Source: Candidatus Curtissbacteria bacterium RIFCSPLOWO2_02_41_11 (lineage in GTDB: Bacteria > Patescibacteriota > Microgenomatia > Curtissbacterales > GWA2-41-24). Taken from it: a stretch of DNA of 37,303 bases. Positions 20,747 to 34,710 of this stretch are shown here, one piece after another. A program made the position numbers and the translations under genes. Numbering within the stretch: the stretch's first letter is position 1; each line of letters starts with the position of its first letter. The notes below the pieces were generated by a model. The model was not told the DNA's origin, made no database searches, and saw only the letters and a list, made by a program, of their open reading frames with translations. The stretch lies in NCBI GenBank assembly GCA_001775055.1, contig MFBU01000014.1, positions 184,535-221,837 of the forward strand. The letters run 5' to 3'.

Positions 20747-21501
20747 TTCCAAGAGAAATCTTACTTGGTCCTGTTACGATTCATCTATATGGTTTGATTA
20801 TCACCATGGCTATTTTTCTGGGATGGTTTTTGGCCAAAAAAAGAGCCCACTTTTATGAAATTTCCAAAGCAATTTTTGATGACCCGATTCTTCTAGTTCC
20901 CTTAGTTTTGGCAATTGTCGGTGCGCGACTTTATCATGTAGTAGATTTCTGGGATTATTATTCGCAGAATTGGAATAAAATTTTTGAGATTTGGAATGGA
21001 GGATTGGGTATCTGGGGAGCGCTTGTAGGCGCTGTTTTGGGTTTTTATCTAATTTCCAAAATTAAAAAAATTGATTTGGCAAGTATCCTTGATTTAGCAT
21101 CTCCTTCCTTACTCTTAGGTCAAGCTCTTGGGCGCTTTGGTAACTTTATCAATCAGGAAGGCTTTGGTCCGCCAACAAATTTACCATGGGGTATCTATAT
21201 TGGCCCCGAGAATAGACCTTCTCAATTTATCAACTCCACCAGCTTCCACCCGACCTTTTTTTATGAAGCAATTTTGGATTTTATTTTTTTCTTGACTCTT
21301 TTATTTTTGAGTCAAAAGTTAAAGGTCAAAGGCCAAGTGTTTGCACTGTATCTTATTTTTTACTCTGCTACTCGCTTTATTGCCGAGTTTTGGCGCATTG
21401 ATACTTGGGTGATAGGGGATATTAAAATTGCCCATGTTATCTCAATCCTCGCTTTTCTTTTAGGTATTAGACTTTTTATCTTGCAAAATCGAAGGGCTTG
21501 A
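20743..21501 (+). CDS. lgt: Prolipoprotein diacylglyceryl transferase
   Basis: VGARLYHVVDFWDYY, GGLGIWGALVG, GQALGRFGNFINQEGFG. Confidence 0.92.
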   Translation: MIPREILLGPVTIHLYGLIITMAIFLGWFLAKKRAHFYEISKAIFDDPILLVPLVLAIVGARLYHVVDFWDYYSQNWNKIFEIWNGGLGIWGALVGAVLGFYLISKIKKIDLASILDLASPSLLLGQALGRFGNFINQEGFGPPTNLPWGIYIGPENRPSQFINSTSFHPTFFYEAILDFIFFLTLLFLSQKLKVKGQVFALYLIFYSATRFIAEFWRIDTWVIGDIKIAHVISILAFLLGIRLFILQNRRA

Positions 21502-21535
21502 CATAACTTAGCACTCGTGGTATTCTGACTGCTAA
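21498..21535 (+). promoter_or_regulatory. lon promoter with CIRCE-like (HrcA) operator
   Basis: TTGACA-N17-TATTCT (21498-21526); TTAGCACTC-N10-GACTGCTAA (21508-21535) versus CIRCE TTAGCACTC-N9-GAGTGCTAA. Confidence 0.65.
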
Positions 21536-21615
21536 TTAAGTCTGACTTGGCTAACCCTAAAGAGATCCGGTATGGTCTTATAGACATACTTGGTACAATA
21601 TACGGTAGAGTATCT

Positions 21616-21716
21616 ATATCAGCAAAGCTTTAAATTATTGTACTTAAGAAAAATTTATGGAAGCTTTCTGATATTTTTCAAAAACTTAATTATTACAATT
21701 AAGTTAGGAAGTTTTT
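21616..21716 (+). promoter_or_regulatory. Structured lon 5' leader: long hairpin, then two mutually exclusive stems over the SD
   Basis: ATATCAGcAAAGCTTTAAATT/AATTTAtggAAGCTTTCTGATAT (21616-21674); AACTTAATT/AATTAAGTT (21683-21705) versus AAAAACTT/AAGTTTTT (21680-21687/21709-21716). Confidence 0.6.
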
Positions 21717-21721
21717 AAAAA

Positions 21722-24142
21722 ATGGCCATTTTCTTAGAACAACAAAAACCAAGACTTAAAAACGAAATCCCTATTGTTCCACTTAGGGACACAGTCGTTT
21801 TTCCTTCATCGATGGTTCCTATTACCGTTGGCAGACCCAAAGTCAAGCTCGGCTTAGATAGTGCTTGGGCAAGTGACAGACTTTGCGTTTTTGTCGCCCA
21901 GAAAAATCCCCGAATTGAAAATCCCGCCCCTAATGATATTTATTCTGTCGGTACTGTCGGTTTAATAAGACGACTTTGGAAAGTTGATAATGAATATAAC
22001 TTAGCAGTCGAGGGTTTAAGTAGGGTTTATCTTAAAGAATTCAGCCAAATCGATCCCTATATTGCGGTTAGGGTTGAAGAAATACCAGAACTTACCCAAA
22101 AAACCGAAGAAATTGAAGCTCTTTTTAGAAATACTTTAACCAAAATTAAAAGATACGGCGAACTGGGCGGGATTTTAACTCTTGAATCTTCAATTCATAT
22201 TTTTTCAACTGACGATCCTAATCAACTGGTAAATATTATTGCTGCCTCAATTGATCTTAAAACCCAAGACAAACAGCAAATTCTTGAGATGGTAGATACT
22301 AAGGCAAGATTGGAACGGCTTTCGGATTTATTAACCCGTGAAATTAGAATTCTGGAAATATCTTCAAAGATTGATACTGAAACTCAAGAAAGAGTCGGCC
22401 GGGTAACCAAAGAAGCAATTCTTCGCGAAAAAATGAAATCGATTGAAAAGGAATTAGGCGAAGATGAAGACGGCAGAGAGATTTCCGAATTTCGCAAAAA
22501 GATTAAAGTCGCCGGTATGCCGCAGGAGGTCAGGACCAAAGCGGATAGGGAACTAGACAGACTTGCCAAAATGTCATCTTACAATCCGGAATCCTCATAT
22601 ATTCGCACGTACCTGGAATGGTTGGTAGATTTACCATGGCAGATTAAGGATAAAAAGACTGCCGATGTCGATTTTGCAGCTAAGGTTTTAGAAGAAGATC
22701 ATTATGGTTTGCCAAAAGCCAAAGAAAGAATTTTAGAATATCTGGCTGTTCATAAATTGGTTGGCAAAATTAAGGGACCGATACTTTGTTTTGTCGGGCC
22801 GCCCGGAACCGGTAAAACTTCAATCGGCAAATCGATTGCCAGAGCGCTTTCGCGCAAGTTTATTAGAGTTTCCTTGGGAGGTATTCATGACGAAGCAGAA
22901 ATCCGAGGCCACAGACGTACTTATGTCGGTGCACTACCGGGAAGGATTATTCAGGGAATTAAAAATGCCGGAACTAAAAATCCGGTGTTTATGCTTGACG
23001 AGATTGATAAAGTCGGTACGGATTTTCGCGGCGATCCGTCGTCAGCTCTTCTTGAAGCACTTGATCCGGAGCAAAATAATTCATTCTCCGATCATTATCT
23101 GGAAGTTGCATATGATCTTTCCGATGTGATGTTTATTACTACTGCCAACATTTTGGATACTATTCCACCGGCACTTCGCGACCGTTTGGAAGTAATTAGC
23201 TTTCCGGGTTATACCGAGGAAGAAAAGTTTCACATAGCTAAGCAATTTCTTATCCCAAAACAACTGGAGGCGCATGGGCTTTCAAAAGAAAAAATAGAAC
23301 TTTCAGATAGCGCTATTAAAGAAATTATTGCACATTACACTAGAGAAGCCGGCGTCAGAGAACTGGAAAGAGAAATTGCAGCCATACTGCGCAAAGTTGC
23401 TAAGAAATTTGCATCACATGCCAAGCAAAAGAAGATCAAAATTATCCCCAAACAGCTTCATAGCTATCTTGGTCCTCACAAATTCTCCAAAACGCTTGCC
23501 GAGACGCACGACGAAGTTGGTATGTCTACAGGACTTTCAGTCACTTCGGCAGGAGGCGAACTGATTTTTGTTGAAGTTACACTGATGCCGGGCAAAGGTC
23601 ATTTAATACTTACCGGCCAGCTTGGCGATGTGATGAAGGAGTCTGCTCAGGCAGCGCTTTCTTATGTCAAATCAAGAGCAAAGTTCTTAGGTCTTAGGGA
23701 TAATTTTGCCGCCAAAATCGATGTCCATATCCATGTCCCCGAAGGTGCTGTTCCTAAAGAAGGACCATCCGCGGGAATTGCTATCACCACCGCTTTAGTT
23801 TCCGCTCTTACTAAAATTCCAGTCAGGCGCGAGGTAGGAATGACTGGGGAAGTGACGCTTCGCGGCAGGGTTTTGGAAATTGGCGGGGTTAAAGAAAAAG
23901 TTTTAGCTGCTCACAGAGCAGGTTTAACAACCATTATCTTGCCAAAAGCCAATGCCAAGGACTTGGAAGAAATTCCTAAAAATGTCAAAAAGGACATGCA
24001 GTTTATTCTGGCGGAACATATGGATGAGGTTTTAAAAGTTGGTTTAACTCACGCCCTTCCGAAAGAAAAAACGAAAGAGCAAATTTTGAAAAAGAAAGAA
24101 AAGATTCTCGGGATTTACTCACCTCCGCCGATAGCAAGTTAA
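21722..24142 (+). CDS. lon: ATP-dependent protease Lon
   Basis: 806 aa; N-terminal substrate domain, GPPGTGKTSIGKS Walker A, catalytic PKEGPSAG. Confidence 0.96.
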   Translation: MAIFLEQQKPRLKNEIPIVPLRDTVVFPSSMVPITVGRPKVKLGLDSAWASDRLCVFVAQKNPRIENPAPNDIYSVGTVGLIRRLWKVDNEYNLAVEGLSRVYLKEFSQIDPYIAVRVEEIPELTQKTEEIEALFRNTLTKIKRYGELGGILTLESSIHIFSTDDPNQLVNIIAASIDLKTQDKQQILEMVDTKARLERLSDLLTREIRILEISSKIDTETQERVGRVTKEAILREKMKSIEKELGEDEDGREISEFRKKIKVAGMPQEVRTKADRELDRLAKMSSYNPESSYIRTYLEWLVDLPWQIKDKKTADVDFAAKVLEEDHYGLPKAKERILEYLAVHKLVGKIKGPILCFVGPPGTGKTSIGKSIARALSRKFIRVSLGGIHDEAEIRGHRRTYVGALPGRIIQGIKNAGTKNPVFMLDEIDKVGTDFRGDPSSALLEALDPEQNNSFSDHYLEVAYDLSDVMFITTANILDTIPPALRDRLEVISFPGYTEEEKFHIAKQFLIPKQLEAHGLSKEKIELSDSAIKEIIAHYTREAGVRELEREIAAILRKVAKKFASHAKQKKIKIIPKQLHSYLGPHKFSKTLAETHDEVGMSTGLSVTSAGGELIFVEVTLMPGKGHLILTGQLGDVMKESAQAALSYVKSRAKFLGLRDNFAAKIDVHIHVPEGAVPKEGPSAGIAITTALVSALTKIPVRREVGMTGEVTLRGRVLEIGGVKEKVLAAHRAGLTTIILPKANAKDLEEIPKNVKKDMQFILAEHMDEVLKVGLTHALPKEKTKEQILKKKEKILGIYSPPPIAS

Positions 24143-33264: not shown

Positions 33265-34536
33265 ATGTTAGACATCAAATTTATCCGCCAAAATCCAAAA
33301 TTAGTTTCGGAAAAGTCCAAACAAAAAGGCTATTCTGTTGACATCGACAAACTTCTTAAAGTCGACCAGCAGCGTCGAGAGTTAATTGAGGAAGTGGATC
33401 ACTTGCGATCCGAACGCAAAAAAGCAGCCGAAGCTCGCGACGAAAAAAGGGGTCAGCAACTTAAAAAAGAATTAAAGGAGAAAGAAAATAAACTCGAAAA
33501 GTTAACTGAAGAATTTTACTTTCTAATCAGAGAAATTCCAAACTTGCCGACAGACGATGTTCCTGTCGGAAAAGACGAAACAGGAAACAAACCAATAAGA
33601 AAGTGGAAAATACCCAAAAAATTTGATTTTAAAGTAAAAGATTATCAGGAACTAGGGGAGTCATTAGATATCGTTGATACGAAAACTGCATCAGAGGTCT
33701 CAGGATCAAGATTTGGATACATAAAGGGTTCTCTTGTGATTGTACAATTCGCACTTATTCAATACGCTCTTGAACTACTTACAAATAAAAGTCAACTTGC
33801 CAAAATCTCAGAATATAATCCAAAACCTTTTGTGCCTGTTATTCCTCCGGTAATGATCAAACCTACAGTTTTTGATCAGATGGCAAGACTTGAGCCAAAA
33901 GAAGAGAGATATTACTTGGACAAAGATAACCTTTATTTAATAGGTAGTGCAGAGCATACATTAGGTCCAATGCACATGAATCAAACATTAAATGAAAAAG
34001 ATCTGCCAATAAGATACGTAGGGTATTCAACTTCTTTTCGACGCGAAGCAGGATCTTACGGCAAGGATACAAGAGGGATATTTAGGGTCCATCAATTCGA
34101 TAAATTAGAGATAGAAAGTTTCACTATTCCAGAAGATTCTAAAAAAGAACAAGATTTTATTGTCGAAGTTCAAGAATATCTTATGCAGGCTTTAGAGATT
34201 CCCTATCAGGTTGTTATGATTTGTACTGGAGACATGGGGGTTCCCGATGCTAGACAGATTGATATAGAAGCCTGGTTCCCTGCGCAGAATAAATATCGCG
34301 AAACTCACACAGCAGATCTTATGACCGACTATCAATCCCGTCGACTTAATACAAAAGTCAAAAGAAAAGATGGCGGAACCGAATTCGTTCATATGAATGA
34401 TGCAACAGTCTTTGCAGGCAGAACTCTGCTTGCCATTATGGAAAATTACCAACAAAAAGACGGATCAATTTTAGTCCCCAAAGCCCTCCAAAAATACACC
34501 GGCTTTCCCAAAATTCCTTCAGCAAAAATCGGTTGA
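33265..34536 (+). CDS. serS: Seryl-tRNA synthetase
   Basis: MLDIKFIRQNPKLVSEKSKQKG; coiled-coil arm; SFRREAGSYGKDTRGIFRVHQFDKLE. Confidence 0.95.
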   Translation: MLDIKFIRQNPKLVSEKSKQKGYSVDIDKLLKVDQQRRELIEEVDHLRSERKKAAEARDEKRGQQLKKELKEKENKLEKLTEEFYFLIREIPNLPTDDVPVGKDETGNKPIRKWKIPKKFDFKVKDYQELGESLDIVDTKTASEVSGSRFGYIKGSLVIVQFALIQYALELLTNKSQLAKISEYNPKPFVPVIPPVMIKPTVFDQMARLEPKEERYYLDKDNLYLIGSAEHTLGPMHMNQTLNEKDLPIRYVGYSTSFRREAGSYGKDTRGIFRVHQFDKLEIESFTIPEDSKKEQDFIVEVQEYLMQALEIPYQVVMICTGDMGVPDARQIDIEAWFPAQNKYRETHTADLMTDYQSRRLNTKVKRKDGGTEFVHMNDATVFAGRTLLAIMENYQQKDGSILVPKALQKYTGFPKIPSAKIG

Positions 34537-34549
34537 CAATAAATTTTTC

Positions 34550-34710
34550 ATATTTTAATTTGAGAATAGCGAAAATTAAAATATATCAGAGGAGCGCCAT
34601 TAGTATGACTGAAACCGAGTCAAACTCGGTGAAAGGTGCCAAGGCGACCTGCTGATATACATAATTTGAAATTAGAAGCCTCCGGAATGCTCGCGGAGGC
34701 TTTTCTTTTA
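34550..34710 (+). ncRNA. Structured RNA candidate ending in a terminator
   Basis: ATATTTTAATTT/AAATTAAAATAT (12 bp); TATATCAG/CTGATATA (8 bp) enclosing ACCGAG/CTCGGT; then AGCCTCCG-N9-CGGAGGCT-TTTCTTTT. Confidence 0.5.
34677..34710 (+). terminator. Rho-independent terminator
   Basis: AGCCTCCG-GAATGCTCG-CGGAGGCT followed by TTTCTTTT. Confidence 0.85.

Follow-up and report, generated by a model that had tools for sequence, protein, structure and literature searches.

Known repeat families and heat-shock elements

BOX, RUP, and SPRITE of Streptococcus pneumoniae are small interspersed stem-loop repeats of mainly intergenic location that can extend a transcript at its 5′ or 3′ end and alter the expression of their neighbours; BOX is modular (PMC3049150). 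The REP, BIME, and REPIN sequences that accompany RAYT are imperfect palindromes present in many, mostly extragenic copies in both orientations (PMC3733652), while ERIC, Correia, and other prokaryotic MITEs are short, non-coding, and mostly intergenic, reach tens of copies per genome, and can affect mRNA (PMC10969869). FourU and ROSE thermometers (e.g. PMC10586365, PMC3669281) have a U-run that can pair with the Shine-Dalgarno (SD) sequence near the start codon. In Mycoplasma pneumoniae, a CIRCE element is located before lon, and the HrcA regulon includes dnaK (PMC7737663).

The leader considered here precedes lon in a window of 37,303 nucleotides (the whole stretch of DNA that was analysed) from Candidatus Curtissbacteria bacterium RIFCSPLOWO2_02_41_11, and it very probably represents one copy of a palindromic repeat that is dispersed and specific to the family, similar in general kind to BOX, RUP, ERIC, and REP. 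Its membership of the repeat family, the pairing of its first hairpin (H1) as seen from covariation, the polarity of its second hairpin (H2), and its absence from other lon leaders are direct observations. The repeat is previously undescribed and is confined almost entirely to one family (Candidatus Curtissbacteria); a search of the open-licence literature gave no relevant account of such a repeat, either for Curtissbacteria or for the Candidate Phyla Radiation. The hypothesis of a single gene-specific switch, put forward in a preliminary description of this DNA, is replaced by a general one that can be tested.

The lon locus and its operator

The lon protease gene occupies positions 21722–24142 of the window on the plus strand, with its ATG at 21722 (Pfam Lon_C, 3e-88; LON substrate-binding domain, 2e-43), after lgt and before a membrane pyrophosphatase gene, and the nearest relatives of the protein belong to Candidatus Curtissbacteria, within the Patescibacteria. 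The genome comprises 1.08 Mb in 25 contigs and is 99.8% complete. A sigma-70-like promoter, Pro1 (21498–21526, plus strand), can be read from the sequence as TTGACA (21498–21503), a 17-nt spacer, and TATTCT (21521–21526), and it is covered by a CIRCE-like HrcA operator, TTAGCACTC-N10-GACTGCTAA (21508–21535, no strand assigned). The CIRCE consensus is the inverted repeat TTAGCACTC-N9-GAGTGCTAA at a promoter; compared with it, the left half of the lon operator is perfect, the right half reads GACTGCTAA, and the spacer is 10, a form that is class-wide at lon. The arrangement of promoter and operator is likewise present at the lon loci of relatives, and the operator occurs at 13/13 family loci, at 31/33 other Microgenomates loci, and at 0/19 loci of other phyla; across Microgenomates, lon generally carries a CIRCE-like operator. 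Among the Microgenomates lon loci (L041–L083 and others), the operator often stands only a few bases from the ATG.

In a search of the genome with up to three mismatches, the sole other perfect match to the pattern lies upstream of hrcA-grpE-dnaK, shortly before the hrcA ATG (L002), and HrcA itself is encoded in the genome (C-terminal domain, 6e-21; DNA-binding domain, 1e-5; Pfam). The operator proposed in the preliminary description is thus borne out by its position over the TTGACA/TATTCT promoter, its conservation throughout the family, and its recurrence at hrcA-grpE-dnaK, and control of lon by HrcA through this operator is supported at the level of sequence; heat control of lon would then proceed via HrcA and not via RNA melting. 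This resembles M. pneumoniae, where CIRCE also precedes lon and the regulon also includes dnaK (PMC7737663), whereas the Patescibacteria operator, TTAGCACTC-N10-GACTGCTAA, differs in its weaker right half and its spacer of 10.

Most family lon leaders have a TATAAT-like box between operator and ATG. In the present leader, TACAAT (21594–21599, plus strand; extended −10, TGGTACAAT), approximately 16 nt before H1, is a candidate −10 box and perhaps marks a second lon promoter. Because the repeat lies downstream of both Pro1 and this candidate promoter, it should be transcribed as part of the lon 5′ UTR, with the transcript from the HrcA-controlled promoter predicted to start near 21532. Outside the family, the distance from the operator to the lon ATG often ranges from a few bases to several tens, which makes a short ancestral leader probable.

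Structure of the lon leader and its response to temperature

H1 (21616–21674, plus strand) is formed by seven base pairs between ATATCAG (21616–21622) and CTGATAT (21668–21674), an unpaired C at 21623, and the stem AAAGCTTT/GGAAGCTTT with the inner stem AAAGCTT/AAGCTTT, and a T5 run lies behind it (21674–21678). H2 (21675–21721, plus strand) follows with the arms TTTTcAAAAACTT (21675–21687) and AAGTTTTTaAAAA (21709–21721) and encloses the SD AGGAAG (21706–21711, plus strand) beside its 3′ arm; the same SD serves lon of the close relative G006. The interrupted hairpin with its T5 run and the two mutually exclusive AU-rich stems had been noted in the preliminary description, and the sequence is as stated there; it is the comparative evidence that establishes the structure as real. 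One of these stems, stem B (AAAAACTT/AAGTTTTT, 21680–21687/21709–21716), is the upper part of H2. It extends outward, a feature previously missed, in that TTTT (21675–21678) pairs with AAAA (21718–21721) across one C-A mismatch, so that H2 as a whole fits precisely between the base of H1 and the lon start codon. The other, stem A (AACTTAATT/AATTAAGTT, 21683–21705, with strands 21683–21691/21697–21705, plus strand), is placed within the H2 loop; it is peculiar to the lon copy, is absent from other copies of the repeat, and is the predicted winner here, H2 not being the predicted minimum-energy form of this copy.

In a shuffle test, the large hairpin alone lies beyond chance (z −3.1; 2/200 shuffles fold as well), whereas the two AU-rich stems alone remain within it (z −1.4; 19/200 shuffles). 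When the leader was folded together with coding sequence, the margin of H1 with stem A over H1 with H2 shrank from 5.5 kcal/mol at 10 °C to 4.2 (37 °C), 3.6 (45 °C), and 2.4 (60 °C), while the mean SD accessibility calculated from the energy model was nearly flat over 10–60 °C, at 0.48–0.50 in the long transcript and 0.38–0.48 in the short one. The SD-free form is thus predicted to be favoured already in the cold. A search of Rfam with the window and the leader (gathering threshold; E up to 10) returned only tRNAs and no RNA-thermometer family.

These results bear on the earlier proposal that the lon leader acts as an RNA thermosensor or two-state switch, for which it can be said that the exclusive stems have 21683–21687 in common, that one of them overlaps the SD and the spacer, and that UUUUC can pair with GGAAG when the RNA is folded without coding sequence. 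However, stem A stays ahead at every temperature, no thermometer family matches, and the element is missing from the lon leaders of relatives, being absent from all 13 other readable ones of the family, so that covariation among lon leaders is lacking altogether and compensatory changes are found instead among dispersed copies before other genes. In the energy model, the SD is not paired in the cold and then freed by warming. Like FourU and ROSE thermometers (e.g. PMC10586365, PMC3669281), the lon leader has a run of U that could pair with the SD close to the start codon; it differs from them in having no Rfam match, no predicted temperature response, and no conservation at lon. A thermosensor or switch is consequently very unlikely; nothing in the analysis supports heat-switch behaviour, the behaviour in vivo being beyond the reach of an energy model. 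What stands of the earlier claim is that the leader is structured and that stem B belongs to a recurrent structure with compensatory changes, while its lon-specific switch does not. The lon leader of G006, the closest relative, shares the SD, the spacer, and the 3′ arm (AGGAAGTTTTTAAAA-ATG) but lacks H1 as well as the 5′ partner AAAAACTT, which fits either acquisition of the element by one lineage or its loss from the other.

Distribution and genomic context of the repeat

A BLAST search of positions 21604–21722 against relatives gave 95% identity over 64 nt in G003 (E 9e-24) and 76% over 112 nt in G012, the latter reaching up to the ATG of rpmA, which encodes L27 (E 9e-16). Copies are located before unrelated genes, including rpmA, rpmF, nusA, rpsU, pth, and yebC, most of them identified with Pfam. 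The pattern ATATCAGN{22,52}CTGATATTTTT (ATATCAG..CTGATATTTTT) occurs in 10/15 family genomes and in 0/40 others, and its reversed control gave 0. The H1-only model R2 found 144 copies in 14/15 family genomes, 27 of them in this genome and 26 in G006; the 40 genomes from elsewhere in the class gave no match. The lon copy scores 50.1 bits with R2 and is one of the 26 training sequences of that model, which match by construction; the BLAST result (E 9e-24) is independent of R2, and so is the contrast with other families of the matching of training copies. When R2 was applied to 286 genomes of the phylum, the sample included two members of the family, with 19 copies apiece. Beyond the family, one match was clear (40.8 bits; L357, G261:C3:127012–127058) and came from another family of the class, and the remaining nine were single matches, none above 25.7 bits. 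The single copy in G261 may point to horizontal spread.

Approximately 90% of the 235-kb contig to which the window belongs is coding, yet every ATATCAG..CTGATAT unit on it falls between genes, and the units occur in either orientation and also in a convergent gap; these gene-context counts cover this one contig together with individual loci. A second copy within the window lies on the minus strand at 34549–34658 (H1 at 34583–34658, H2 at about 34549–34582, arms ATATTTTAATTT/AAATTAAAATAT), in the gap after the seryl-tRNA synthetase gene (33265–34536). Such an intergenic distribution in both orientations is the behaviour of a dispersed palindromic repeat and not of a leader RNA alone. Insertion sites at yebC, rpmA, rpmF, and nusA are common to different genera, which suggests either age combined with selection or repeated use of the same sites. 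At L159/L349 (G000:C5:116001), the repeat is inverted directly before rplJ (ribosomal protein L10).

Conserved and variable parts of the repeat

H1 is an imperfect hairpin in which the ends, the unpaired C, and the bases of the internal loop are conserved. The order of elements in it is AUAUCAG, an unpaired C, AG, an internal loop, CGCC, UUG with variable pairs, and the apical loop, followed on the 3′ side by CAA, an unpaired U, GGCG, CUCCU, and CUGAUAU; in the subtype of the lon copy, AAAGCUU/AAGCUUU replaces the internal loop. In a MAFFT alignment of 26 distinct copies that made no use of structure, 92.4% of the cells of H1 are paired, 60 cells are changed on both sides of a pair compared with 14.8 in shuffles, two-sided changes occur in 11/20 pairs, and the covariation score of 0.343 (0.124 in shuffles) was reached by 0/500 shuffles. 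The same picture emerges when the 70 copies of the main subtype are compared from fixed anchors with no gaps, position 20 pairing with −21 in 84% vs. 41%.

The arms of H2 are mostly unrelated in sequence between copies, yet they pair. Among 53 H1 copies of G000 and G006 collected with the H1-only model, the best stem at the 3′ foot of H1 scored 8.9, compared with 5.4 at the 5′ side and 5.7 in shuffles, and a score of at least 10 was reached by 19/53 copies on the 3′ side and by 0/53 on the 5′ side (p ~3e-8). The repeat is therefore polar, with H2 at the 3′ foot of H1 only; in the lon copy, the anchored-stem score is 13 downstream and 7 upstream of H1. Closure of H2 flush with the ATG gave z 8.4 in 52 copies, a sample that is biased because R1, the model by which most of these copies were retrieved, already includes H2, whereas in the unbiased set from two genomes flush closure is weak and is reached by 57/2000 shuffles. 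There are also copies in which it is a TATAAT box, not the ATG, that H2 adjoins. At L210, L243, and L261, different ATATCAG...CTGATAT-type hairpins are arranged in chains separated by ATAT, which suggests modular arrays.

Relationship to described repeats and alternative explanations

Like the modular BOX, the Curtissbacteria repeat includes copies that are chains of several hairpins bounded by ATAT, but its conserved hairpin, fixed unpaired C, and following hairpin with copy-specific arms differ from BOX, RUP, and SPRITE as described, and it belongs to another phylum. With REP, BIME, and REPIN it shares imperfect palindromy, many copies, a mostly extragenic location, and both orientations (PMC3733652, PMC2817692, PMC3116915). 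However, REP sequences measure 20–40 nt while H1 alone typically takes up about 50–76 nt, and the REP tags were searched for within 8 nt of the 5′ foot, with GTAG found in 1/95 copies and CGTC in 0/95. Y1_Tnp, the RAYT-type domain, is present in 13/15 family genomes but also in 33/40 genomes free of the repeat, and in G012, which has 11 copies, no Y1_Tnp was found. A REP/RAYT identity was rejected on the absence of the GTAG/CGTC tag and on the lack of specificity of the Y1 transposase for carriers of the repeat. As in MITEs (PMC10969869), the copies are short, non-coding, numerous, and foldable; a difference from ERIC- and Correia-type elements is that H2 is not conserved in sequence. The ends are ATATCAG/CTGATAT, and a T precedes 69/95 copies, which is compatible with insertion at TA.

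Several other explanations of the element were weighed against that of a dispersed repeat. A shared regulatory leader RNA, in which H1 would be recognised by a factor while H2 exposed or covered the SD and start codon, is possible, though we consider it doubtful. The unpaired bases of H1 are conserved beyond the needs of pairing, in many copies H2 spans the distance from H1 to the ATG exactly with the SD inside, and many downstream genes act in translation or folding, including those for L12, L27, L31, L32, S2, S18, S21, EF-G, and NusA, as well as PheS, YebC, DnaK, GroEL, trigger factor, and Lon. Nevertheless, the exact spanning is affected by the bias of the 52-copy test and is weak in the unbiased set, copies of H1 point either way, with some sited upstream of promoters, in a convergent gap, or reversed ahead of rplJ, and between tandem genes a hand count gave about 21 sense against 13 antisense copies. 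A regulatory RNA limited to leaders is weakened by this both-orientation intergenic distribution together with the weak unbiased ATG test.

It is very unlikely that H1 with the T5 run serves the lon leader as an intrinsic terminator or attenuator: the strong stem followed by TTTTTC and the recurrence of H1 with a T run before several genes would suit one, but the base of the stem is AU-rich with just five T, the copies stand in both orientations, and many of them have no T run after CTGATAT (AATT or ATTC instead), the last point being the one on which this explanation was set aside. Chance stems in an AT-rich leader carry virtually no weight. Although the 3′ stems alone fall within the range of shuffles, homologous copies in 14/15 family genomes and strong covariation refute chance for H1.

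On the preferred explanation of a dispersed palindromic repeat, the element would have arrived or spread as a small, possibly non-autonomous mobile DNA, and at lon it would have come to lie behind the HrcA-controlled promoter and the candidate second one. In lon mRNA, H1 and stem A would always be formed and the SD would be largely open, such that the repeat may mainly affect mRNA stability and basal translation of lon, an effect that, by analogy, could be comparable to those that BOX, Correia, and ERIC elements are reported to have (PMC3049150, PMC10969869). In this very small genome of the Patescibacteria, about 27 copies of a structured repeat are present, which would often form the 5′ ends of the mRNAs of essential genes, and the covariance model is ready to be used for annotation of the repeat.

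Duplicated N-terminal codons around the element

In several cases, the repeat directly separates two diverged versions of the N-terminal codons of the gene behind it, namely in yebC (three genera), fusA, dnaK, mutM, a PilM-like gene, an unannotated gene of G003, and others. The upstream codon copy ends at H1, at the same codon where the downstream copy meets the end of H2. A duplication score of at least 40 was obtained for 8/92 copies, with one locus possibly counted twice, compared with 0/542 mismatched pairs. For yebC in G000, ATGTCGGGACATTCGAAGTGGAGTCAA stands before the element and ATGTCGGGTCATAGTAAGTGGTCGCAA after it, and G006 and G002 are arranged alike; 27/27 residues agree between the copies despite 27 base differences in 81, a Nei-Gojobori count being uninformative here since serine switches between TCN and AGY pass through other residues. 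At L219 (G000:C2:1001–1109), L235 (G006:C22), and L144/L179 (G002:C24), the element lies between synonymously diverged MSGHSKWS(Q/T) codons of yebC, and in G002 the last position is Thr instead of Gln in both copies. The yebC loci of G001 and of the outgroup have a single start close behind a −10-like box, and it is suggested from this arrangement that the upstream yebC copy keeps the ancestral start.

At fusA, the gene of EF-G (L129:4109; G000:C14:84109), the N-terminus is present upstream in a diverged form, MTQKQNRLYPLDRIRN, that runs right up to the element, and the complete gene restarts after it. The two fusA N-termini of this genome, MTQKQNRLYPLDR and MPDKNSRLYPLER, can be told apart, while the yebC copies have identical residues. 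In G006 and G002, fusA is preceded by a short upstream ORF that resembles the N-terminus, and the repeat is absent there. Decay also occurs, as one comparable duplication in G002 is not in frame and the mutM copy upstream of the element has no ATG.

The conservative explanation is insertion with duplication, followed by selection on the downstream copy. Both codon copies end at the same codon, so without H1–H2 a single uninterrupted reading frame would result, and the element might be skipped through ribosome bypass, RNA splicing, or DNA excision; this is very unlikely. If it were true, the skipped repeat would be a bacterial hairpin intervening sequence with a logic comparable to that of translational bypassing elements. 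Copies that split N-terminal coding duplicates raise the question of how such insertions are tolerated in essential genes.

As a separate observation, at L282, L287, L300, and other loci in the family and the class, several genes seem to have a −10 box 6–10 nt before the ATG, which suggests leaderless mRNAs.
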